64,000 bases of DNA from Candidatus Zixiibacteriota bacterium (GTDB lineage Bacteria > Zixibacteria > MSB-5A5 > GN15 > FEB-12), in the NCBI GenBank assembly GCA_017999435.1, contig JAGNLV010000001.1, positions 1,210,746 to 1,274,745 of the forward strand. The letters run 5' to 3'. A model generated the notes under the pieces. The model was given only the letters and a program-made list of their open reading frames with translations. It ran no database searches and was not told where the DNA came from. Positions 8,775 to 64,000 of this stretch are shown here, piece by piece; the stretch's first letter is position 1, and each line of letters begins with the position of its first letter. The translations under genes were made by a program, and so were the position numbers.

Positions 8775-9129
8775 CCCGCCCGGCGGTCTATCGTAGCGAA
8801 ATTCTACCCACATTATCATGAATTCCCTTGACCGCCCGCGGGTCCGCCGCTTAATTGACTATATGGATTTCTGAAGTCGCCATCCGGACCGCCCGCGGCC
8901 GGCGCCGACAGTCCCGGTTCCGCCCCGTCCGCGCGGGCCCGCCTCCGGCGACACAGCCCATGGGGAATCGCCGATAGTGCCAAACCGTCAGCCACCATCC
9001 GCCGCACCGCCGCCCGCCGCGGCCGCCATCGTTTCTCGGGCGGGACCGATCCCGGCGCGGCCGACGGTCGACGGCTTCTCCCCACGACTCACCAACCGTT
9101 CCACCAACCATCAGCCTGCGGGGTGCGCA
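8775..9129. other. Intergenic region before the modular protease
   Basis: 355 bases without a supported gene. A TTGACC near 8827 followed by AT-rich sequence (TTAATTGACTATATGG) could be a promoter, but no good -10 stands at the right spacing. In-frame codons upstream of 9130 encode a Pro/Ala-rich stretch that looks non-coding, so the protease is placed at the ATG at 9130, which starts a proper signal peptide. Confidence 0.4.
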
Positions 9130-12100
9130 ATGAGGTTCCTGAGGTTCATGCTGGTCGTCACCGCGACCGCGCTGTCGGGCGCGGTAACCGTGGCCGCGCA
9201 GGTCAGCGAAGGGGGCACGCCGCCGAGTTTCGGCAAGGCGGTGGGCGCCGCAATCGACCGCTACGTCACCGCGCCGATCGACGTGGCCGCGCTTCTCGAG
9301 GAGGACGCGCGGACGCCCAAAGATGTGCCTTTCCGATTCGGCTACCCGTTCGATGTCCGGCTCGGTCTGGACAACGCGGGCACGTGGGAGGTGCTGGCCG
9401 ACGGCAGCCGGCTGTGGCGGCTGCAGATCGAATGCCCCGGCGCCGCGTCGATCAACCTGATCTTCGACCGGTTCTGGCTGCCCGACGGCGCCCGGCTGTT
9501 CATCTACAACGCCGACCGCTCCCACGTCATCGGCGCCTTCACGAGCCGTAACAACAAGGACTACGGCTCCTTCGCCACTCAGCCGGTGCGCGGCGACGTG
9601 AGCGTGCTGGAGTACTGGGAGCCGGCCGGGCTGAACGCGCAGCCGGAACTGCGGGTCTCGCGCATCGTCCACGCCTACCGCAATCTGTTCGCGCGGGATT
9701 TTCTCAAGGATTTCGGCGAATCGGGCGCCTGCAACAACAACGTCCGCTGCCCCGAGTGGGCGGCCTTTGATCCCCTCATCCGCTCGGTGGCCCTGATCAC
9801 GACCGGCGGCGGCTTCCGCCTCTGTTCGGGCGCGATGATCAACAACGTGCGGCAGGACCTCACCCCCTATTTCCTCACCGCCAACCACTGCCTCGGCGGC
9901 TCCGACACCTGGGTGTTCATTTTCAACTACGAGAGCCCGGCCTGCAGCAACGTCGACGGCCCCACCTACATGACGGTGTCGGGTTCCACCCTCCGGGCGA
10001 ATCTCGCCTACTCAGACTTCGCGCTCCTGGAGCTGTCCGAGCAGCCGCCGGATTCCTACAACGTCTACTACGCCGGCTGGAACGCCGTCAACGCCGCCGC
10101 CGACAGCGTTATCGCCATCCACCACCCCTCGGGCGACATCAAGAAGATCACTTTCGACTACAACGCGGTGACCTCCACGAGCTACCTGGGGACCGCGGTG
10201 CCCGGCGACGATTCGCACTGGCGGATCGGCCAGTGGGAGGACGGCACGACCGAGCCCGGGTCCTCCGGGTCGCCGATCTTCAACCGCCAGGGACAGATCA
10301 TCGGCCAGCTCCACGGCGGCTACGCTTCCTGCGCGAGCATCACCTCCGACTGGTACGGGAAGTTCGCCAAGTCGTGGAGCTACGGGTCGACCGCCGCCAC
10401 CCGCCTGCGCGACTGGCTGGACCCCGACAACACGGGTGCGCTCAGTCTGGGCGGCCGGGAGAGCGCCGGCATCTCCATCACCCACGATCCGCTCCCCGAC
10501 ACCCGCGACACGGTCAACGACTACGCCGTCCTCGCCGCCATCACCAGCGACGTTCCTCTGGACCCCGACTCGCTCCTGCTCTACTATGAAATCGGGGCGG
10601 CCAACTACGAGGATACGCTCACCCCGACCGGCAACCCCGATGAGTTTGTCGGCTACATTCCCGCGCAGGCTCCCGGCACAGTCGTCAGCTACCGCCTGCT
10701 GGCGGTCGACAGCGACGGCAAGGCGGACACCACCGACAGTTTCAGCTTCCGCGTCATCGACTACGGCCTGACCCTGGCGCCCGCCGCCGATACACTCTCC
10801 GGCCCGGTTGCCGATTCAGTCTGGTACGCCCTGCAGATTGTGAACACCGGCGTGTACACGGACTCCTACGCCCTCGCGGTGTCGGGCAACGCCTGGACTA
10901 CCGAAATCTTCGACGCCGCCGGGACGACGCCGCTTTTGTCCACCGGCCCGCTGGCGGCCGACTCCGTTTTCGCGTTCACGGTCCGCGTCATCGTGCCGCC
11001 CTCGGTGTACGGGGCCGCCGACACGGCCCTTGTCACGGCCACGTCCGTCGGCGATCCGGTCTACACCGCGGCCAGCCGGCTCCGCACCGTCTCCGACGGC
11101 GAGCCGCTGGCGATTCCGTTCGAGGACGAGTTCCCGGCGGCCGCGCTGAGCGCCGCGCACTGGGTCCAGACCACCGGGGCCGAGGCCAACGCCGTCGCGC
11201 TCGCCGAACCCTCCGAACCGTACAGCCTCAACCTCGACGGCGCCCCGGCGGGAGCCGACACGGTCATGTCGCAGGTGATCAATCTCGCGGGCCAGGGGAA
11301 TCTGATCGTGCGCTATTTCTACGAGCGCACCGGCGGCGGCGACTCCCCCGAGGCCAACGACGACCTCTTCGTCGAGTACCGCGACAGCGCCGGCGTGTGG
11401 CAGCTCCTGCAGCAACACCTCGGTTCTGGCCCCGACATGACGACTTTCTCCGAGGTGGAACTCCCGCTTCCGCCGGCCGCTTATCACAGCGCGTTCCGCC
11501 TGCGCCTGAGGAGTATCGGGACGGCGGGCGCCTACGACGACTGGTTCGTCGACGACCTCTACGTCGGCCCCCCCCAGCCCTTCAAGCTCTCTCTGGACCC
11601 GGCCTTCGCCAGCCAGTACGGCCCGGCCGGCGACACCATGCAGTACACGCTGCAGATCGCCAACCGGGGGTCGCAGGCCGACCAGTACAGCTTCGCCGAC
11701 TCGGGCGGCGCGTGGCCCGTGTCGTTCTGGGATGACGCCGGGGTGGCCCCGGTCGGCGGCAGCGGCATGATCGCCGCCGGCGATTCCGCCCGGTTTGTGG
11801 TCAAGGTCGAGGTGCCGGCCGACGCCCCGATGAACGCCGTCGACTCCTGCCGTGTGCGCGCCGTCTCCGCCGGGGACCCGCTCATGTTCGACGACAGTCG
11901 GCTGGTTTCGTTCTCGGCCGGCCCGCCCGGCGGATTTCCGTGGTACGAACCCTTCCCGGTCGATACGGTCATCGTCTCCCGGTGGACAAGCATTGTCGGC
12001 GCGGCGGTTAGCGCGGCGGCGCTTTTCCCGCCCTCGGCCCCCTACGCGGCGGCGCTCGACGGCGGCGTCGACACGCTGACCTCCCAGCCGATTGACCTGT

Positions 12101-13677
12101 CGGGGCGCAGCGACGTCGTCCTGTCCTACTACTACGAGCGCGGCGGTTCGTCCGAGCCGCCCGATGCGGGCGACGATCTCTGGGTGGAGTACAAGAACAA
12201 CTCCGGCTCCTGGGTTCTCGTCGCCCGCCACCTCGGGTCGGGCGCGCCCATGTCGAGCTTCGAGCGCGTGACTTTCGGTCTGCCGGCCGACGCGCTGCAC
12301 GGCGGTTTCCAGGTCCGCTTCCGCTCGTTCGGTTCCGGCGCCGATTCCGACTTCTGGTTCGTCGACAACATCAGCGTCGACTACGCTCCCGCGCTGGCCG
12401 TGGCGCCCTCCGGATTCAGCGCGGGCCTAGTGCAGGGGGATTCCGCCGCGGACCGGCTGCTCATCGCCAACACCGGCCTCGGCGTTCTCACCTATTCGCT
12501 CTCGGTTGTCCCGGTCGCCGCCAAGGGGAACACCCGCCTGGGCGAACTGCTCGCGTCGGGGGAACTCGCACCCGCGCACCGGCGGCTCGCGGAGGGTTTC
12601 GAGGATTACGCCGACCACAAGGGCGCCGACGATCCGCGGAGCGGGCCGGCGGTGGAAAAGAGCGCCGGCGGACCGGACGGCCACGGCTACTTCTGGATCG
12701 ACTCCGACGAATCCGGGGGACCGGCCTTTGAATGGATCGACGTCTCGGCCGCCGGCACCGATGTCATCAGCGCCCTCAACGACGATAACTTCGCAGGCCC
12801 CTATGCCATCGGCTTCCCCTTCCCGTTCTATGACAGCGCCTACACCGAGATCTACATCGGGTCGAACGGGATCATCGGGTTCGCCCCCGGAGCGATGAAC
12901 TCCCGCTTCAAGAAACACATCCCCAACGACACTCTCCCCAACGCCCTCCTCGCCTGGCTGTGGGACGACCTGAACCCGGATGATGTGAACAATGCCGCCG
13001 CGGCCCACGTCTACCTCGATACGAGCGGCGGCCGTTGCGTCATTCAGTTCACCGCCTATCCCGAATATCTGGCGAACCCCGGCGACGTGATCACGGCGGA
13101 GGTTATCCTCGAACCGGACGGTTCCATCCGCTTCCAGTACCTGAGCGTCGCCGCCGGGTTCGATGCGGCCGGCGGCACGATAGGGATCGAGAGCCCGGAC
13201 GGCACGGACGGCCTGGAGGTTGCGTACCTGACGCCCTACCTGAAAGACTCCCTCTGCATCCGGTTCGTCCAGCCCTACCAATGGCTGGGCCTCAGCCGCT
13301 TTTCGGGAACGGTGGCGGCCGGAGGTACCGATACCGTGGGCCTGATGTTCCGCTCGGCGGGTCTGGATTCCGGCCTCTACCAGGCCGCCCTCGTGGTGAG
13401 CTGCAACGATCCGAATCACCCGGCGGAGACGGTTCCGGCGGAGCTGACGGTGACGCTCCAGCCTGCCTGGATCTGCGGCGACATCAACGGCGACGGGGCG
13501 GGGCCGAGCGTGGCCGACCTGACTTTCTTCATCAACTTCCTCTTCCGGGGCGGGCCGGCGCCGCCGGATCCCGCGGCTTGCGATTTCGACGGCTCGGGCG
13601 ACATCGCGCTGCCGGATCTCACGCAGTTGATCAATTTTCTCTTCCGCGGGGGGTCGCCGCCGACCTGCGGCAACTGA
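9130..13677 (+). CDS. Secreted modular trypsin-like (lysyl endopeptidase-type) protease with dockerin-like C-terminus
   Basis: 1515 residues, with a signal peptide beginning MRFLRFMLVVTATALSG. The S1 protease triad is visible: His253 in TANHCLGG, Asp296 in SDFALLEL and Ser379 in PGSSGSPIF. Two tandem units of about 270 residues follow (about 10765-11574 and 11578-12387), each a NEW3-like beta domain plus a MAM/jelly-roll-like domain with a YYERGG-type motif and WFVDD/WFVDN. Next comes a nidogen-like segment (GFPFPFYDSAYTEIYIGSNG). The last 65 residues are two dockerin-like Ca-binding loops (DINGDG and DFDGSG), each ending LFRGG. It is an extracellular protease whose C-terminus could dock to a cohesin partner, such as the protein at the right edge. 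A terminator follows. Confidence 0.85.
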   Translation: MRFLRFMLVVTATALSGAVTVAAQVSEGGTPPSFGKAVGAAIDRYVTAPIDVAALLEEDARTPKDVPFRFGYPFDVRLGLDNAGTWEVLADGSRLWRLQIECPGAASINLIFDRFWLPDGARLFIYNADRSHVIGAFTSRNNKDYGSFATQPVRGDVSVLEYWEPAGLNAQPELRVSRIVHAYRNLFARDFLKDFGESGACNNNVRCPEWAAFDPLIRSVALITTGGGFRLCSGAMINNVRQDLTPYFLTANHCLGGSDTWVFIFNYESPACSNVDGPTYMTVSGSTLRANLAYSDFALLELSEQPPDSYNVYYAGWNAVNAAADSVIAIHHPSGDIKKITFDYNAVTSTSYLGTAVPGDDSHWRIGQWEDGTTEPGSSGSPIFNRQGQIIGQLHGGYASCASITSDWYGKFAKSWSYGSTAATRLRDWLDPDNTGALSLGGRESAGISITHDPLPDTRDTVNDYAVLAAITSDVPLDPDSLLLYYEIGAANYEDTLTPTGNPDEFVGYIPAQAPGTVVSYRLLAVDSDGKADTTDSFSFRVIDYGLTLAPAADTLSGPVADSVWYALQIVNTGVYTDSYALAVSGNAWTTEIFDAAGTTPLLSTGPLAADSVFAFTVRVIVPPSVYGAADTALVTATSVGDPVYTAASRLRTVSDGEPLAIPFEDEFPAAALSAAHWVQTTGAEANAVALAEPSEPYSLNLDGAPAGADTVMSQVINLAGQGNLIVRYFYERTGGGDSPEANDDLFVEYRDSAGVWQLLQQHLGSGPDMTTFSEVELPLPPAAYHSAFRLRLRSIGTAGAYDDWFVDDLYVGPPQPFKLSLDPAFASQYGPAGDTMQYTLQIANRGSQADQYSFADSGGAWPVSFWDDAGVAPVGGSGMIAAGDSARFVVKVEVPADAPMNAVDSCRVRAVSAGDPLMFDDSRLVSFSAGPPGGFPWYEPFPVDTVIVSRWTSIVGAAVSAAALFPPSAPYAAALDGGVDTLTSQPIDLSGRSDVVLSYYYERGGSSEPPDAGDDLWVEYKNNSGSWVLVARHLGSGAPMSSFERVTFGLPADALHGGFQVRFRSFGSGADSDFWFVDNISVDYAPALAVAPSGFSAGLVQGDSAADRLLIANTGLGVLTYSLSVVPVAAKGNTRLGELLASGELAPAHRRLAEGFEDYADHKGADDPRSGPAVEKSAGGPDGHGYFWIDSDESGGPAFEWIDVSAAGTDVISALNDDNFAGPYAIGFPFPFYDSAYTEIYIGSNGIIGFAPGAMNSRFKKHIPNDTLPNALLAWLWDDLNPDDVNNAAAAHVYLDTSGGRCVIQFTAYPEYLANPGDVITAEVILEPDGSIRFQYLSVAAGFDAAGGTIGIESPDGTDGLEVAYLTPYLKDSLCIRFVQPYQWLGLSRFSGTVAAGGTDTVGLMFRSAGLDSGLYQAALVVSCNDPNHPAETVPAELTVTLQPAWICGDINGDGAGPSVADLTFFINFLFRGGPAPPDPAACDFDGSGDIALPDLTQLINFLFRGGSPPTCGN
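10765..12387 (+). repeat. Tandem duplication of an about 810-bp module inside the protease gene
   Basis: Two units (about 10765-11574 and 11578-12387) encode the same order: a beta domain with YALQIVNTG or YTLQIANRG, then a lectin-like domain with EANDDLFVEYRDSAG or DAGDDLWVEYKNNSG, HLGSG, and a closing WFVDD or WFVDN. The protein copies are clearly diverged. Confidence 0.7.
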
Positions 13678-13799: not shown

Positions 13800-16748
13800 A
13801 TGATGCGTTCTCTTCGCTGTGCAACCGTCCTGCTTTTGCTTGTCCTCTGCGCGTCGACCGTCGTCGCCGTCAACGAGCACTACCTGCGGCTCAAGGCCGA
13901 TTCCCCGAAGGCACTGGCCGAGCTCTCCGAGGTCGTCTCGATCGACAACGTGCAGGACGGCGTCGTGCTGGCGTACGCCACCGACGAGCAGCTGGCTGCG
14001 CTGGAGCGCCTCGGGTATGCCTTCGAGGAACTCCCGCGCCCGAGCACGCTGATCGTCCCCGAAATGACGTCCGATCTCCGCGATGCAAGGGCCTGGGATG
14101 TGTACCCCACGTATGATGCCTACGTGGCCATGATGAACCAGTTTGCCGCAACCTACCCGGGCCTCTGCCAAATCGTGACCATCGGCACGACGACCGAGGG
14201 CCGCGCCCTGTTGGCCGCCAAGATCTCCGACAACGTCGCGGTCGACGAGGACGAGCCGGAAGTGCTGTATCTGTCGTCGATGCACGGCGACGAGACCACC
14301 GGGTACGTCCTGATGCTGCGCATGATCGACTCCCTCCTGAGCGCCTACGGCGTCAATCCTCAGATCACCAGCATGGTCGACAATCTCGAGATCTGGATCA
14401 ACCCGCTGCACAACCCCGACGGGACCTACGCCGGCGGCAATTCGACAGTGTACGGGGCGACCCGCTACAACGCCAACGGCGTCGACCTCAACCGGAACTT
14501 CCCCGACGCCGACGACGGGCCGCACCCGGACGGCAACGCCTATCAGCCGGAAACCAACGCCATGATCGCGTTCGCCCAGGCCCGCCACTTTATCATCTCC
14601 GCCAACTTCCACGGCGGGGCCGAAGTGGTCAACTACCCCTGGGACACCTGGTCGCGCCGGCATCCCGACGACGCCTGGTGGCAGACCGTCTCACACGTGT
14701 TCGCCGACTCCGCCCAGTACTACAGCTCGGGGGGCTACATGGACGGGTTCAACGACGGCATCACCAACGGGTATGACTGGTACACGATCACCGGCGGCCG
14801 CCAGGATTTCATGAACTACTGGCACGGCTGCCGCGAAGTCACCATCGAGATCTCCGAGACCAAGCTGCTCCCCGCCGGCCAGCTCCCGACCTGGTGGGGC
14901 TACCTGCGGGTCTCGCTGTTCAACTACCTGCGCAATGCCCTCCGGGGCGTGCGCGGGATCGTCACCGACGCCAACACCGGCCTGCCGCTGGCGGCCACGA
15001 TCTTTGTGCTCAGCCACGACACCCAGGCCGACAGCTCCCAGGTCTACACCGATCCCGTGCTGGGCAACTACCACCGCATGATCGCTCCCGGTACCTGGAA
15101 CTTCGTCTACAGCTCGCCCGGCTACTACCCGGACACTGTTTTCGGCATCACCGTCGCTTCCTACGCCGGCACGGTCACGCAGAACGTACAGCTCCAGCCG
15201 CTGCCGAACGCGCCGGTTCTGACGTTCGTGAGCCAGACGGCGGGTGCGCTGGATCCGGGGGAATCGGCGGCCATGAGCATCACACTGAAAAACGAGGGCG
15301 CCGGCAACGCCGTTAATCTGGCCGGGACGCTGGCGACCGCCGACAGCTACATCACGATCACGCAGAACAGCGCCATGTTCCCGACCATCACCGCCCTGGG
15401 CGGCACCGGCACGTCGCTCACCGCCTACCAGTTCAGCGTCTCCCCCTCCTGCCCGCTCGAGCACCCGGTCGATTTCGTTGTACACCTCACCGCCGACGGC
15501 GGCTACAGCGACAGCGTGCTGTTTTCGTTGACCGTGGGGCAGACGATCGAAGACTTCGAGACCGGCAATTTCGCCGCCTTCCCGTGGACGCAGAGCGGCA
15601 ACGCTGCGTGGGTAACGACGACTTCGGCGCCCTACGAGGGCACCTACTCGGCCAAGTCGGGGACCATTTCGCACAGCCAGACCTCCACCATGCAGGTCAC
15701 GCTGAGCAACCTCGAGGCCGGCACGGTGACTTTCCGCTACAAGGTCTCGTCGGAGTCGGGCTGGGACTACCTGGAATTCTGGCTCGACGGCGTCCGCAAG
15801 GACCGGTGGTCCGGCACCGTCGCCTGGACCGAGGCGTCCTACGCCACCACGGCCGGTAGCCATACGTTCCGCTGGACCTACACGAAGGACGGATCACAGT
15901 CGGTCGGCAGCGACTGCGGCTGGGTGGACTACATTGTCTTCCCGACTGCCGATCCCGATCCCGATAACGACGGGATCCCCACCGGGTCGGACAACTGCCC
16001 CACGGTCGCCAACCCCGGCCAGACCGATGCCGACGGCGACGGTAAGGGGGACGCCTGCGACAACTGCCCGTCGGTCCAGAACCCCACCCAGGCCAACTCC
16101 GACAGCGATACTTTCGGCGACGCCTGCGACAACTGTCCGACCGTCGCCAACCAGATCCAGACCGACGCCGACAGCGACGGCAAGGGGGACGCCTGCGACA
16201 ACTGCGTGACCACCCCCAATCCGGACCAGGCCAACAGCGACACCGACGCTTTCGGCAACGCCTGCGACAATTGCCCTGCCATCGCCAACGCCACTCAGAA
16301 CGACGCTGACAGCGACGGTGTCGGGGATGCCTGCGACAACTGCGCGGCGGTGCCCAACACCAGTCAGACGAATTCTGACGGCGACGTCCGCGGCGACGCC
16401 TGCGACAACTGCCCGACTGTCACAAATCCGACGCAGGTCGACGGCGATCAGGATGCCGTCGGCGACGCCTGTGACAACTGTCCCGAGATCGCTAACCCGG
16501 ACCAGGCCGACGGCGACCTCGACGGCGTCGGCGACGCCTGCGATTACCTGTGCGGCGACGTTACCGGGGACGGCAGTTTCACTGTCGGCGATTTGACCTT
16601 CTTTATCGCCTTCATGTTCCGCGGCGGTCCCTCCCCCGCCAACATGGCGGCGGCGGATGTTGACGGCCAGGTCGGCATCACCGTCGGCGACGTCACCTAC
16701 ATGATCGCCTTCCTCTTCCGAGGGGGCCCGGCGCTGGTGTGCCAGTGA
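13800..16748 (+). CDS. Secreted M14 zinc carboxypeptidase with thrombospondin type-3 repeats and dockerin-like C-terminus
   Basis: 982 residues, with AAAGGAAAG before the ATG and a signal peptide in the first 24 residues. The M14 catalytic domain (about 100-380) shows zinc ligands His162 and Glu165 in MHGDETTG and His271 in NFHGG, the substrate-binding NRNFPD at 231 and the catalytic Glu350 in VTIEIS. A carboxypeptidase regulatory-like beta domain follows (about 385-460), then a CARDB-like and a lectin-like domain, then eight thrombospondin type-3 repeats rich in Asp and Cys. The end is a dockerin-like pair (DVTGDG and DVDGQV loops, each ending FRGG). It should cleave peptides outside the cell. 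It shares its C-terminus type with the upstream protease. Confidence 0.88.
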   Translation: MMRSLRCATVLLLLVLCASTVVAVNEHYLRLKADSPKALAELSEVVSIDNVQDGVVLAYATDEQLAALERLGYAFEELPRPSTLIVPEMTSDLRDARAWDVYPTYDAYVAMMNQFAATYPGLCQIVTIGTTTEGRALLAAKISDNVAVDEDEPEVLYLSSMHGDETTGYVLMLRMIDSLLSAYGVNPQITSMVDNLEIWINPLHNPDGTYAGGNSTVYGATRYNANGVDLNRNFPDADDGPHPDGNAYQPETNAMIAFAQARHFIISANFHGGAEVVNYPWDTWSRRHPDDAWWQTVSHVFADSAQYYSSGGYMDGFNDGITNGYDWYTITGGRQDFMNYWHGCREVTIEISETKLLPAGQLPTWWGYLRVSLFNYLRNALRGVRGIVTDANTGLPLAATIFVLSHDTQADSSQVYTDPVLGNYHRMIAPGTWNFVYSSPGYYPDTVFGITVASYAGTVTQNVQLQPLPNAPVLTFVSQTAGALDPGESAAMSITLKNEGAGNAVNLAGTLATADSYITITQNSAMFPTITALGGTGTSLTAYQFSVSPSCPLEHPVDFVVHLTADGGYSDSVLFSLTVGQTIEDFETGNFAAFPWTQSGNAAWVTTTSAPYEGTYSAKSGTISHSQTSTMQVTLSNLEAGTVTFRYKVSSESGWDYLEFWLDGVRKDRWSGTVAWTEASYATTAGSHTFRWTYTKDGSQSVGSDCGWVDYIVFPTADPDPDNDGIPTGSDNCPTVANPGQTDADGDGKGDACDNCPSVQNPTQANSDSDTFGDACDNCPTVANQIQTDADSDGKGDACDNCVTTPNPDQANSDTDAFGNACDNCPAIANATQNDADSDGVGDACDNCAAVPNTSQTNSDGDVRGDACDNCPTVTNPTQVDGDQDAVGDACDNCPEIANPDQADGDLDGVGDACDYLCGDVTGDGSFTVGDLTFFIAFMFRGGPSPANMAAADVDGQVGITVGDVTYMIAFLFRGGPALVCQ
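15951..16547 (+). repeat. Thrombospondin type-3 repeat array
   Basis: Eight in-frame units of about 69 bases, each encoding a variant of GDACDNCP followed by an NP-x-Q and a D-x-D run. Units differ by several bases. The Asp-rich loops and paired Cys are typical of Ca-binding, disulfide-locked spacers. Confidence 0.88.
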
Positions 16749-20307: not shown

Positions 20308-21945
20308 CTAGCGAGCGCACGGGGGCGGACCGCCCCGCAGGAGATATGCAACCAGGCTGCTGAGATCGGTGACCGTAATTCCCCCGTCGCAGTCCACATC
20401 CCCCAACTCGACCGGCTGCGGCGCCCGGCCGCCGCGAAAAACGTACCCGACCAGGAACGTCACATCCGCCACGCTTGCCGTCCCATCCCCGTTCACGTCC
20501 CCCGACCGGTGGCCGATTATCGTAACCTCGCCTTCGATATTCACCGGCGCACCGTCCCGGAATTCCCCCGTCACCGTGTATGGCGCCCGGGCCGTGTCCC
20601 AGACCAGTCCGTACCCCTGGAGAAACGTCCGGGCGGGAAAAAGCGCTGTCACCACGCTGCCCGCGAACCCCGGGCATTTCAAGTGCCCCGCGCAGACCGT
20701 CGGCTGGACAGCTCCGTTGACCCGCAGAGAGCTCAGCCGAATGTCGCCGGCGGCGCGGTCCGGCAGGTTGCCGATAACGAGCGTATCCATGACGGGTGTC
20801 ACGGCGTTTGACAGGAAAGCATACTGCGGCTGCGGGGTCAGCCGCGCGGGATCGGCCCCGCACGCTTGCCGGGCCGCATTGAATTGAATCTCATCGTACG
20901 ACAGCCACCCGAAATCCCAGTCGTAGTACGCCGACCTGACGGACACTTCCGCTTCTTCCGCAAGGCGACCGAGCAGCTCAAGCGGTATCCTTCCCTCGAT
21001 GACGCGACCCGACACCGCCGGCGGTTCGAGCATCGTTTCCTGCTGCGTCATGTTGTTCCAGAAGTACATTTCCCAGGTGGACTCGATTCTGATGCTGCAC
21101 GTACTGTCGGTACCGCTAATATACCAGACAATCGAATAGCGGTCCCAGAGCGTCCCGCTGTGCGGAAAGGCGGCGTCGCCGACACATTCTATCCGGAAGT
21201 AGTAGTAGTCCGAATCATGGCAGAGATAGACCCGATCCAGTTCGGCCGCCGGGGTGCTGGTCCCGTCATCGCGCCTGTCCTGAGCCATGAGATACATGTA
21301 TGGCCAGTCTTCGAAATCTCCCCCAATGGCAACTGTTCCGCACCGAATCGGCATCCACTTTCCGTAGGGCGAGCGCGCCAGAATGATGGAATCCGCGTCC
21401 GGTCCCCCCATGCCGCCAAGCGTGTCCGCCCGGTAGATCAGGGTCAGCGCGCCACCCAGCTCCGGCGGCAGGTCAAGCAGAACCGTATCATTCGCAAACG
21501 TGCCGTCGGCGACAAACCAGGTCGAGGTATCGGTATCCATCCAGAGCTGCACCGCCGAGCCCTCGTGGACAAACCTCGGAATTTCCCTCCCTCCGTCGAC
21601 ATTCGCCCACCACCCGTTGAGATCCACCGGGTACCTGACGATCGTCATGGGATTCCCTTCCTCGTTCAGACCGCTCAGCGTGTCCCCATGGTACACGAGA
21701 ATCACCGTGTCGGCAGGCGTCGGGTAGGCCCACAGCGTATCGTTGGCAAAGACGCCCGGGGCGATGAGTGTCCCGTCCCCGTCGAGTATAGTGACATCGA
21801 CCCCCTGCTGCACCAACCGGATGAAATGCCCGTTGTCCTCGATCACCCTCCACCAGCCCGTGAGATCCGTGAGCCGGCTCGCCCCGGCCGTGCTCGCAAG
21901 CGCCGCGACCCCCGCCAGGAGGGCGGCCCGCACGCATGCTTTCAT
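20308..21945 (-). CDS. Secreted protein with duplicated N-terminal domain, CBM9-like domain and dockerin-like C-terminus
   Basis: 545 residues. The signal peptide MKACVRAALLAGVAALAST is followed by two copies of an about 85-residue unit (LTGWWRVIEDNG and LNGWWANVDGGR starts; GVFANDTLWAYP and GTFANDTVLLDLP; YHGDTLSG and YRADTLGG). The middle (about 195-330) looks like a CBM9/DOMON sandwich (IGGDFEDWP, YYYFRIECVG). The last 65 residues are a dockerin-like pair whose loops fit the 12-residue pattern exactly (DVNGDGTASVAD and DVDCDGGITVTD), ending in FRGG or LRGG. No catalytic motif is seen, so it may be a binding or accessory protein held outside the cell. Confidence 0.8.
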   Translation of the reverse strand: MKACVRAALLAGVAALASTAGASRLTDLTGWWRVIEDNGHFIRLVQQGVDVTILDGDGTLIAPGVFANDTLWAYPTPADTVILVYHGDTLSGLNEEGNPMTIVRYPVDLNGWWANVDGGREIPRFVHEGSAVQLWMDTDTSTWFVADGTFANDTVLLDLPPELGGALTLIYRADTLGGMGGPDADSIILARSPYGKWMPIRCGTVAIGGDFEDWPYMYLMAQDRRDDGTSTPAAELDRVYLCHDSDYYYFRIECVGDAAFPHSGTLWDRYSIVWYISGTDSTCSIRIESTWEMYFWNNMTQQETMLEPPAVSGRVIEGRIPLELLGRLAEEAEVSVRSAYYDWDFGWLSYDEIQFNAARQACGADPARLTPQPQYAFLSNAVTPVMDTLVIGNLPDRAAGDIRLSSLRVNGAVQPTVCAGHLKCPGFAGSVVTALFPARTFLQGYGLVWDTARAPYTVTGEFRDGAPVNIEGEVTIIGHRSGDVNGDGTASVADVTFLVGYVFRGGRAPQPVELGDVDCDGGITVTDLSSLVAYLLRGGPPPCAR

Positions 21946-58530: not shown

Positions 58531-61131
58531 ATGCACTTAGCCTTTCGTTCCGCCGGCGCCGCCGTGCTCTCCGCGCTGTTGGTCGTTTTGGTGGCCGCCT
58601 CGGCCGCCGCCCAGCGGGAGCCTGCCGACAAGGATGATTTCGCGGACTTGGCAGCCGCCGCGCCCGGCCCCAAGCCCAGCATCGCCGCCCACAACGTCGG
58701 CCAACTCACCGTGGGCGTCACCAATTTCGGCATGATCGGCATCGGGCGGGGCAAGAACCAGCGCATCGACTGTTTCACCGGACGGCCAGTCCCGAAGGGG
58801 GAGTACCCCAAGGGCTCGCGCTCGGTGTACCTCTATGAGGGAGGGCTCTGGGTGGGCGGCGTGGTGGGCGGCGACAGCCTGGTCTCCACCGGTGCCGAGT
58901 TCAACAACTACAATTTCGAGTTCTGGCCCACTCAGCCCATCACCACCTACTCCAACGTCGACCCTGATGATCCCAACTCCGCCCTGGCCAAATCCGAGCA
59001 GGACTACTACGCGACCTATGTCGATACCATGCCGGTGAGTTCGTACGATCCGATCGCCAACCGCGGGCACAAGCCGCTCGGGCTTCGGGTCGAACAGGCC
59101 TCCTACGCCTGGTCCTACCCGCACACCGACGATTTCATCATCATCACCTGGCAGATCAAGAACATTTCGCGGAAGGCCATTTCAGACGTGTGGGTGGGCA
59201 TCTACTGGGATGCCGATGTGCACCTGCAGGGGATCGGCGACATGCTCAACCGCCCCGACTACGGGAAGCCGCTCACGGACGGGCGCGACGACCTCGCGGG
59301 GTTCATGTACACCGTGCCGTCGGCCGATGAGACCTGCCCCGGCTCCGATACCATCGGCCTCGCCTGGACCGCCGACAACGAAGGCGACTACTCCAGCACG
59401 ACCGGGCTGTTCGCGGTTCCCAACGTGGGGGCCATCCGCTTTCTCGGCCCCGAGCTGACCGATCGCCGCTACCGTGTGAACTACAACTGGTGGGTCTACA
59501 ACTACAGTTCCGGCTACGACTACGGTCCGCAGAAGCGGGACCGCTACCGCGACCTCGGCAACGGACCGGGGACCCCGTACGGCGACGTCAACCGCTACTT
59601 CATGATGAGCAATGGCGAGCGGGATTTCGACATGGTCTACACGTACGGCATCGGCCAGAACGACCCGGTGTGGGTTCCCCCGAGCCGCTACACGTCCTGG
59701 GCGATGTCCCGGGGCGGCGACGTGCAGCAGGTGCTCTCGGTCGGCCCGCGCTACCTCGCCCCCGGCTCCGAAATCACGGTCGCCATGGCCTTCGTCTGCG
59801 GCTCCGGCCTGCACTACAACCCGGTCAACTTCCGCCGCAAGATGCTCCAGGCGTTCGAGCCGGACGAGTACTACGCCGGGCTTGACTTCTCCAATCTCCT
59901 GGCCAATGCCCAGACCGCCGGCCGCGTCTATGACATCCCCGGTTTCGACAGCAACGGCGACGGTTACCTGGGGAAGATGCGCGAGTGCGTGGTCGATTCG
60001 GCGTTTGTCGACGGCCGCTGGGTGGCCACGGCGCTCGACACGAGCTGGTACGAAGGGGACGGGATCCCCGACTTGAAAGCGGCCGGCCCGCCCCCCGCCC
60101 CCGAATTCTCGCTCCACCCCATCCGCAACGGCGTGAAAGTTCTCTTCTACGGACTCCAGTCAGAGACCACCCGGGACATCTTCTCCAACCAATTCGACTT
60201 CGAGGGCTACCGCGTCTACCTCGCCCGCGACAATCGGGAGAGCAGCTTCTCGCTCGTCGGCCAGTACGACCGCGAGGATTACGACAAGTGGGTGCTCGTG
60301 CAGAAACCCGGGCGCGACGCGCAGTACTACCGCCAGGGGGATCCGTTCACCCGCGGATTTCTCCGCTGCGCCTACGGCCAGGGGCCCAACCCGTGCGCCG
60401 ATTCCGCTTTTGACCCCCTCCTCTACACCATCTCCCGCCCGTACGTGCACCCGCTCTATCCCGACTCGGTGTTCTACTTCACGGCTCACGACTACAACCA
60501 GTATGCCTTCGGGGCCGGGACCTCGATCCGCAAGGTCTATCCGGCGCAGGAGCCGCCCGTGTCGCTGCAGGCGCCGGCGCCCGAGGACACGACCGAGGAA
60601 GGTCTGTTCAAGTACTATCTGTACGAGATGGATATCCCCGACCTGCTCCCGAGCGTGCAGTACTACGTGGTGGTGACCGCATTCGACTTCGGGTCGCCCG
60701 AGACCGGCCTGGCCCCGCAGGAGTCCGCGCGCACGGTCTACGCGAAGCCGGCTTATCCCAACAACGCCTGGGACGAGAAGCCCGACTCGCTGACCAACGT
60801 GTACGTCTACCCCAACCCGTACCGGCACGACGCCTACTATCGCGTCTCCGGTTTCGAGGGACGGGGCGAGGAGGACCGCTCGCGTGATCGTGTTCGCAAG
60901 ATTACGTTTGCCAATCTGCCTCACCAGTGCACGATCCGCATTTTCACGCTCGACGGCGACCTGGTGAAAGAACTCAACCACGACATTCCGTCCAGCGATC
61001 CGAACTCCTCCTACCACGAGTGGGACATGGTGAGCCGGAACTTCCAGATGATCGTCTCCGGGTTGTACTACTGGGTGGTGGAGACGCCGGACGGGCGGCA
61101 TCAGGTGGGCAAGCTCGTGATTCTGCTGTGA
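58531..61131 (+). CDS. Large secreted protein with a YPNP-type C-terminal sorting domain
   Basis: 866 residues with a signal peptide (AAVLSALLVVLVAASAAAQ). The N-terminal and middle regions carry no enzyme motif I recognise and are Tyr- and Asp-rich with beta-type spacing (FIIITWQIKNISRK; FDFEGYRVYLARD). The C-terminal 110 residues begin VYVYPNPYRHDAYY, continue CTIRIFTLDGDLVKEL and end GLYYWVVETPDGR and GKLVILL. That is the pattern of T9SS type A or FlgD-like C-terminal domains, which guide export or surface attachment in FCB bacteria. It lies divergent from the kinase and may be controlled by the same circuit through the sigma-54-like site at 58444. Confidence 0.82.
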   Translation: MHLAFRSAGAAVLSALLVVLVAASAAAQREPADKDDFADLAAAAPGPKPSIAAHNVGQLTVGVTNFGMIGIGRGKNQRIDCFTGRPVPKGEYPKGSRSVYLYEGGLWVGGVVGGDSLVSTGAEFNNYNFEFWPTQPITTYSNVDPDDPNSALAKSEQDYYATYVDTMPVSSYDPIANRGHKPLGLRVEQASYAWSYPHTDDFIIITWQIKNISRKAISDVWVGIYWDADVHLQGIGDMLNRPDYGKPLTDGRDDLAGFMYTVPSADETCPGSDTIGLAWTADNEGDYSSTTGLFAVPNVGAIRFLGPELTDRRYRVNYNWWVYNYSSGYDYGPQKRDRYRDLGNGPGTPYGDVNRYFMMSNGERDFDMVYTYGIGQNDPVWVPPSRYTSWAMSRGGDVQQVLSVGPRYLAPGSEITVAMAFVCGSGLHYNPVNFRRKMLQAFEPDEYYAGLDFSNLLANAQTAGRVYDIPGFDSNGDGYLGKMRECVVDSAFVDGRWVATALDTSWYEGDGIPDLKAAGPPPAPEFSLHPIRNGVKVLFYGLQSETTRDIFSNQFDFEGYRVYLARDNRESSFSLVGQYDREDYDKWVLVQKPGRDAQYYRQGDPFTRGFLRCAYGQGPNPCADSAFDPLLYTISRPYVHPLYPDSVFYFTAHDYNQYAFGAGTSIRKVYPAQEPPVSLQAPAPEDTTEEGLFKYYLYEMDIPDLLPSVQYYVVVTAFDFGSPETGLAPQESARTVYAKPAYPNNAWDEKPDSLTNVYVYPNPYRHDAYYRVSGFEGRGEEDRSRDRVRKITFANLPHQCTIRIFTLDGDLVKELNHDIPSSDPNSSYHEWDMVSRNFQMIVSGLYYWVVETPDGRHQVGKLVILL

Positions 61132-62876: not shown

Positions 62877-64000
62877 ATGTACCTGCCAACCGTCTCCTTG
62901 TTTGTCCGCAGGTTGCTGCCGGTCGCGTTGCTGGTCGGCGCCCTGGGAACGGCCGTCTGGGCCGGGCCGGCGGTGATCCGCGTCGAGAGCATCGAAAATG
63001 CCGCCCTCGCCGATACCGTCGAGCTCGCGGTGATCATGGATGCCCCCCATGATTCGTCCGCTCTGACCGGGTTCAACCTCTTGCTCACGTACGACCAGAC
63101 CGGGATGGCCTTTCTCGCCGCCGACGCGGGCCAGTTGCTCGTCGACTGCCAGTGGGAGTACTTCACCTACCGCTCGGGGATCGACTCGACGCTCGGCGGT
63201 TCGCCCCTCGCCCTGGTCCGGCTCGTCGCGATCGCGGAGATCAACAACGGATCGGTCCACCCGGACTGCCCCCTTGATACACCCGGCGAGCTGGCGCGGC
63301 TTCGTTTCCGCACAACCGCTTCGCCCGGAGCCGCCGACCATCAGTTCCCGGTCCGATTCTACTGGCACGACTGCGACGACAACGTATTCGCCGACTCCAC
63401 CGGCGATACCCTCCTGATCTCAAACCGCGTCTTCGAATTCGGCCAGGAGATAACCGAGGAGCATCCGTTCCCAACTTATTTCGGCGCGCCGTCCGCCTGC
63501 CTGATTCAGAGCACGATCATCCGCGGGGCAGACTTCTACAACGGCAGCGTCCGGATCGATGCGCAGGCGGCGCCCCCCGACGCTCCGGTGAGGGTAGTGA
63601 TAAGCCCGCTCGAGGCCCCCGTGCTGGGCGGTCCGGTCGAATTTGCAGCCCAACTGCACCAGGTGCAGTCGGGTCTCGCGCTCGGCGGCTTTGACTTCCT
63701 CGTCCGGTATGACCCGGCGCAACTCACCTGGATGTCGGCCCAGCCCGGCAACCTGCTGGAGTCCTGCGGGTGGGAGTACTTCACCTTCGCAGCCGGCGCC
63801 CAGGCCGAGTGCGGGCAATTCCCCTGCCCGGCGGGCGTGGCGCGCGTGATCGCCGTCGCCGACCTGGCCTCCCCGACCGGAACCCCGACCTGCGGAGCCG
63901 ATACCGAAGGCACCCTCGCCAATTTCCTCTTCACCGTGGCGAACGACACCTCGCTCATCGGCCGCCCCCTTGCGGTGGAGTGGTACTGGTACACCTGCGA
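62877..64000 (+). CDS. Secreted protein with two cohesin-like modules, cut by the window edge
   Basis: An open frame of 374 codons running off the right end without a stop, with GGAGG 5 bases before the ATG. A signal peptide (LLPVALLVGALGTAVWA) is followed by two related modules. Module 1 (about residues 30-215) has ADTVELAVIMDA, GFNLLLTYDQTGMAFLAADA, GQLL and WEYFTYRSG; module 2 (about 240 to the end) has GPVEFAAQL, GFDFLVRYDPAQLTWMSAQ, PGNLL and WEYFTFAAG. The order of a hydrophobic strand, Y-D-x-x-x-L or M, and PG or AG-x-LL is that of the cohesin fold. It could be a scaffold for the dockerin-like proteins encoded at 9-22 kb. Other folds with the same rhythm cannot be excluded. Confidence 0.75.
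   Translation, partial: MYLPTVSLFVRRLLPVALLVGALGTAVWAGPAVIRVESIENAALADTVELAVIMDAPHDSSALTGFNLLLTYDQTGMAFLAADAGQLLVDCQWEYFTYRSGIDSTLGGSPLALVRLVAIAEINNGSVHPDCPLDTPGELARLRFRTTASPGAADHQFPVRFYWHDCDDNVFADSTGDTLLISNRVFEFGQEITEEHPFPTYFGAPSACLIQSTIIRGADFYNGSVRIDAQAAPPDAPVRVVISPLEAPVLGGPVEFAAQLHQVQSGLALGGFDFLVRYDPAQLTWMSAQPGNLLESCGWEYFTFAAGAQAECGQFPCPAGVARVIAVADLASPTGTPTCGADTEGTLANFLFTVANDTSLIGRPLAVEWYWYTC

Follow-up and report, generated by a model that had tools for sequence, protein, structure and literature searches.

Divergent cohesins and dockerin-tailed secreted proteins in Zixibacteriota: a candidate non-cellulosomal surface system

Introduction

Does a gene that runs off the edge of a 64,000-nucleotide stretch of a Candidatus Zixiibacteriota genome (hereafter the window) encode a cohesin scaffold for secreted proteins and, if so, is the assembly of the kind known from cellulosomes? 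For modular enzyme assembly, the cohesin–dockerin interaction is the textbook case, nearly always discussed in terms of sugar degradation. The initial annotation of the window saw a different combination, in which a scaffold made of modules with a shared WEYFT motif would receive dockerin-tailed proteins that include peptidases. Our full-text search of the literature found no paper naming Zixibacteria together with dockerin. Here, we follow the gene into its contig, its modules into predicted structures and profile comparisons, and the tails through the genome and the phylum.

Results

The open reading frame that starts at position 62877 on the forward strand extends beyond the window, which holds the N-terminal 374 of its 701 codons (62877–64000); read on the genome contig, the gene continues to window-equivalent position 64982 (L002:1623–3728). 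Its product, P0001, begins with a probable Sec signal peptide, recognized by eye (residues 1–29, 62877–62963; MYLPTVSLFVRRLLPVALLVGALGTAVWA), followed by module 1 (residues 29–231, 62961–63569) and module 2 (residues 237–440, 63585–64000, where the window edge cuts it). Both modules contain WEYFT, at 63153 and 63771, as had been noted from the letters; in module 1 the signature reads WEYFTY (63153–63170) and lies on the strand after the LLVDC helix, as placed from an AlphaFold2 model. The peptide of module 2 quoted in the initial annotation, GFDFLVRYDPAQLTWMSAQPGN (63687–63752), holds the D equivalent to Asp39 of CipA. Past module 2, a dockerin-like pair inside the chain starts at residue 444 (RGDVNLNGIANEVSDYVLFGNYFFYG...TTDVNADGLPLTLDDHVFLARIVVGDA) and is followed by a beta-type segment; the protein ends in a dockerin of the type that we call FRGG (residues 637–690), which matches PF00404 (Dockerin_1) with 34 bits against a cut-off of 22.9. 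Another gene follows on this strand after 142 bases (L002:3871–5118, window-equivalent 65125–66372); its product, P0002 (415 aa), combines a single WEYFT module with an Ig-like segment and also carries an FRGG tail, again over the PF00404 cut-off. As both P0001 and P0002 carry FRGG tails, the supposed scaffold is itself dockerin-bearing, and the locus is a co-directional pair.

Both the predicted fold and homology identify the WEYFT modules as cohesins, of a divergent subfamily in which a module spans about 200 aa and has additional loops. A model of module 1, obtained with AlphaFold2 from the window sequence and 16 natural relatives (mean pLDDT 91.2, pTM 0.88), has the nine-strand jelly-roll of cohesins over the whole domain. 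A Foldseek search of the PDB with this model gave 34 chains at E≤0.001, every one a cohesin. In VIA-align, the model superposes on a type I cohesin with Z 17.6 and an rmsd of 1.9 Å over 143/143 residues at 15% identity (15–21% over the leading rows), and on the non-cellulosomal cohesin of Archaeoglobus, 2xdh, with Z 15.3. We considered another Ig-like family, the outcome that would have spoken against the cohesin assignment of the initial annotation, and rejected it: the non-cohesin rows of the Foldseek search start at E 2e-3, with TM-scores far under those of the cohesins. Profile comparisons agree with the fold. A profile of 17 modules, searched against all PDB sequences, gave 18 matches, all of them to cohesins (best E 0.0018), and 11 of its 17 members match PF00963 (best 2.9e-6), module 2 alone reaching 17.8 bits, below the curated cut-off of 24.1 that serves as detection threshold. 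Moreover, a bridging subfamily of Zixibacteriota, in which FEYF or a near variant replaces WEYF, matches PF00963 above the cut-off in four out of four members (best 1.7e-11) and aligns with the WEYFT modules with a probability of 99.4 (E 1.5e-21). Aligned directly with three CipA cohesins by hhalign, the modules reach a probability of only 57% (E 1e-4), and the homology thus rests on the bridging set and on the fold.

In an alignment of 30 WEYFT modules, the most conserved columns include the WEYF strand (W 29/30, E 29/30, F 28/30), the D39 column (D in 24, N in two), the D/E93 column (D or E in 26/30) and a DCGDN motif (C and N both 30/30), so that WEYFT, described as common to the two window modules, is a genuine subfamily signature. 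Profile alignment places D39 on Asp39 of CipA and D/E93 on CipA Glu86, which we take to belong with the positions of the binding face. The dockerin Ser/Thr motif is touched by Asn37, Asp39, Gly123 and Ala125 of CipA (PMC5772552). These correspondences are signs that a putative binding face is kept in the modules. The alignment also suggests two Cys pairs, the first nearly invariant (C138–C180, both present in 29/30 modules) and the second variable (C63–C103, both in 18, neither in 10, C63 alone in two); WEYFT cohesins would probably have up to two disulfides.

The three secreted proteins of the window reported to end in dockerin-type tails do so. The tails belong to a trypsin-like protease (8977–13677, tail 13474–13674, forward strand), an M14 carboxypeptidase (13800–16748, tail 16545–16745, forward strand) and a secreted protein of 545 aa with no assigned function (20308–21945, tail 20314–20520, reverse strand), for which the earlier label of CBM9-like finds no Pfam support. 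Taken singly, the first two fall below the Dockerin_1 cut-off and the third lies above it (27.9 bits); a profile of the genome's own tails recovers all three with E values from 2e-35 to 7e-34. Genome-wide, PF00404 gives 60 matches at E≤0.001 and the profile built from local tails 101, and in 88 of 99 unique tails the tail ends five residues or fewer from the C-terminus. One match (G000:C3:292316–292507) runs through an in-frame TAG, and this tail may thus be truncated. An FRGG tail is built from a Ca-loop/helix repeat of about 22 residues, present twice with the two-fold symmetry of type I dockerins. Both halves read V(S/A)DLTxL(I/V)xYLFRGGP and, since they carry one code, the symmetry is kept, in about 73 of the 85 tails examined; such symmetry underlies the dual-mode docking of type I dockerins. 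A Cys is found within the last eight residues of 74/83 tails, and 49/83 also have one just before the first loop, from which we infer a disulfide clasp.

The set of tailed proteins is peptidase-rich. Among the families listed in a Pfam scan of 89 tailed proteins there are about 20 matches to peptidase domains, with S8 (8), M28 (3) and M14 (2) represented more than once and C25, M4, C1, C10, M1, M6 and trypsin-like peptidases once each; peptidylarginine deiminase (PAD) is the non-peptidase enzyme among them, and glycoside hydrolases do not occur among the families listed. The idea that an assembly, if there is one, would be proteolytic, first drawn from three proteins, therefore holds across the genome. 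Sorting domains of the type IX kind (T9SS, PF18962) are a second C-terminal tag, with 36 matches in the genome, and a comparison of the coordinates of the 101 tails with those of the 36 domains places both tags in one frame only (C1:1166 kb). Both types are present in the window, as an 866-aa secreted protein (58531–61131) ends in what is by eye a T9SS-type domain, VYPNPYRHDAYYR...GLYYWVVETPDGRHQVGKLVILL. Elsewhere in the genome, a gingipain-type C25 peptidase with a propeptide (L095:6997–12330) has an FRGG dockerin tail in place of a T9SS sorting domain.

WEYFT modules are not confined to this locus. There are 13 matches in 12 open reading frames of this genome, two in P0001 and one in each of the others, and the three modules of the P0001–P0002 pair are paralogous (34–35% mutual identity). 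Because the modules are paralogous and conserved in 119/132 genomes of the phylum, their occurrence is far beyond chance. Almost all relatives come from Zixiibacteriota MAGs; WEYFT modules are also found under the labels of other phyla, in a Desulfosarcina MAG (L030) and a Calditrichaeota MAG (L023), for which horizontal transfer and misbinned contigs are candidate readings. At one locus of this genome (L102, G000:C6:139874–146879) three WEYFT-cohesin genes are adjacent; an internal dockerin is present in two of their products, and the third has a T9SS tail. There are also frames that combine a cohesin-like domain with an FRGG tail (L124, C4:117041; L126, C4:419108; C2:411440; C1:1131092; C5:55391). 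In L124 and L126 the domain stands immediately N-terminal of the tail, in one of them behind a subtilase, and it is possibly an X-module-like partner of the dockerin.

FRGG tails occur in 126 and PF00963 domains in 123 of the 132 genomes. Seven genomes (G025, G027, G028, G085, G104, G105 and G113) have tails and no WEYFT modules, among them G025, which is 95% complete in one contig and has 51 tails. Thus, the WEYFT modules are not an obligatory receptor of the tails. From PF00963 and the WEYFT profile these genomes could be taken for cohesin-free, a reading that we discarded, as a cohesin profile tuned to Zixibacteriota finds cohesin-like domains in all seven; by one profile or another, a cohesin-like domain is present in every genome that has tails. 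One protein recurs in the seven: about 270 aa long, it joins one cohesin-like domain, which also shows a strand of the EYF type, to a T9SS sorting domain. Small proteins of this composition are found in our genome at C1:86762–87226 (L122) and C3:342449–342856 (L121). Of the 126 genomes with tails, 125 have the L122-type family, and the six without tails all lack it, so that it is present in 125/132 of the phylum; 11 of 12 sampled members have the sorting domain. Its own assignment to the cohesins is sub-threshold, with 14.3 bits against PF00963 and a probability of 89.7 against the bridging set. By its distribution, the family tracks the tails far better than the WEYFT modules do. This association is suggestive, because the six tail-less genomes come from just two families (f6 and f17) and perhaps reflect two independent events. 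This T9SS cohesin-like protein is the most widely conserved candidate anchor for the tails.

Discussion

On balance, we lean towards a divergent, non-cellulosomal cohesin–dockerin surface system, in which P0001 would be a two-cohesin scaffoldin of the adaptor type and the tails would dock secreted proteins at the cell surface. The secreted chain of P0001 combines two cohesins with a dockerin, as adaptor scaffoldins combine at least two with one. The scaffold of the initial annotation survives in its two cohesins; with no more than these, an internal dockerin-like pair and an FRGG tail of its own, P0001 is closer to an adaptor than to a primary scaffold. The system is not a cellulosome, since it lacks a multi-cohesin scaffoldin and cellulases and has a dockerin in cis on most of its cohesin chains. 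No chain among the 13 genome matches has more than two WEYFT modules, no frame among those listed with a wider cohesin profile has more than two cohesins, and neither cellulases nor hemicellulases are among the families listed for the 89 tailed proteins. What is shared with the clostridial system (CipA, PDB 1OHZ) is the cohesin fold, the D at the position of Asp39, the symmetric two-loop dockerin and its use as a C-terminal tag on enzymes. In contrast, CBMs are missing here, cohesins and dockerins occur in the same chains, and the dockerin specificity positions 11–12 are V-S/A in FRGG tails and S-T in the clostridial cellulosome.

The nearest precedents are the chains of ANME archaea, which have up to five cohesins plus a dockerin per protein (PMC9012536), and the system of Ca. 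Stygibacter of the Cloacimonadota (PMC8542988). With the former, and with the Archaeoglobus fulgidus cohesin (2xdh), our system shares chains of several cohesins and one dockerin and the lack of cellulases; it differs in being bacterial, in the additional loops and Cys pairs of its modules, which are about 200 aa long, in the signature of the FRGG tail, in its T9SS-linked candidate anchor and in its peptidase-rich set of tailed proteins. Ca. Stygibacter likewise has S8 and C25 peptidases with C-terminal dockerins, and a cohesin protein with a surface-attachment CTD. Unlike ours, its system includes a scaffoldin of 3,755 aa with tandem cohesins and CBMs, and GH18 and GH57 enzymes, whereas we find at most two of these cohesins per chain and no glycoside hydrolase among the families listed. 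The FRGG tail is unrelated in sequence and fold to the T9SS C-terminal domain (PF18962), and both serve as alternative C-terminal tags on secreted proteins of one genome. The novel elements are the WEYFT subfamily, the code of the FRGG tail, the T9SS-linked candidate anchor and an extent that spans the phylum.

How might such a surface system work? T9SS would display a cohesin-like receptor on the cell surface, and FRGG-tailed secreted proteins, many of them peptidases, would dock into surface cohesins and stay at the cell; proteins held in this manner would not need a T9SS domain of their own. P0001 would be held by such an anchor through its tail and could take up dockerins with its two cohesins, as an adaptor or branch with two sockets and one plug. 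The partners of these cohesins would be either FRGG tails or the internal type of dockerin found beside most WEYFT cohesins. A more far-reaching version, which we put forward tentatively, is a surface "peptidosome" that would hold about 100 secreted proteins, through a disulfide-braced FRGG tag, on the T9SS-anchored cohesin-like protein, with WEYFT chains extending or branching the array; cells would then use two C-terminal tags for the surface, the T9SS sorting domain and the FRGG tail.

The main competing explanation arises from the dockerins that accompany the WEYFT modules, which may be their real partners. By inspection, a dockerin is found in the same chain as the module in 9/12 open reading frames of our genome and in 16/16 of the relatives; it usually stands right after the module, in many cases with a T9SS domain behind it, or else is an FRGG-type tail. 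The adjacent cis-dockerin reads RGDxNLNGxxxEIADAVLFSNYFVYG...ASDVNADGxxLxVADLVYLIRV. In this reading, WEYFT cohesins would pair with dockerins of their own type of chain, either inside a single molecule, which would give a stabilized unit, or head-to-tail between copies, which would build surface fibres; the FRGG-tailed enzymes would form a separate system. We regard this as somewhat unlikely: adjacency alone does not imply binding, three of our own open reading frames lack the dockerin, none adjoins module 1 or the module of P0002, and AlphaFold2 modelled a WEYFT module with its cis-dockerin at low confidence (pLDDT 71). Alternatively, the FRGG tail could be a sorting or stability tag for a receptor that is not a cohesin, the cohesins being bystanders. 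The C-terminal position of the tails on proteins of many kinds, their near exclusion of T9SS tails, the paired Cys residues of many of them and their persistence in genomes without WEYFT modules would all fit such a tag; we think it improbable, as every tail-bearing genome has a cohesin-like domain and the two-fold dockerin symmetry is retained in most tails. Finally, that the modules keep the fold and have lost dockerin binding, to serve as spacer or adhesion Ig-like domains, would accord with their very divergent sequences and with the cohesin-like domains directly N-terminal of FRGG tails, where X-like modules might stand, and is highly improbable given that the positions aligned with Asp39 and Glu86, DCGDN and WEYF are among the most conserved of the module.

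In any event, genomes of an uncultured phylum each encode five to 10 divergent cohesins, together with many dockerin tails on a peptidase-rich secretome. If the binding proposed for the preferred surface system is true, it would provide a new set of orthogonal binding pairs and, for the Zixibacteriota of sediments, a concrete route to keep proteases at the cell surface.
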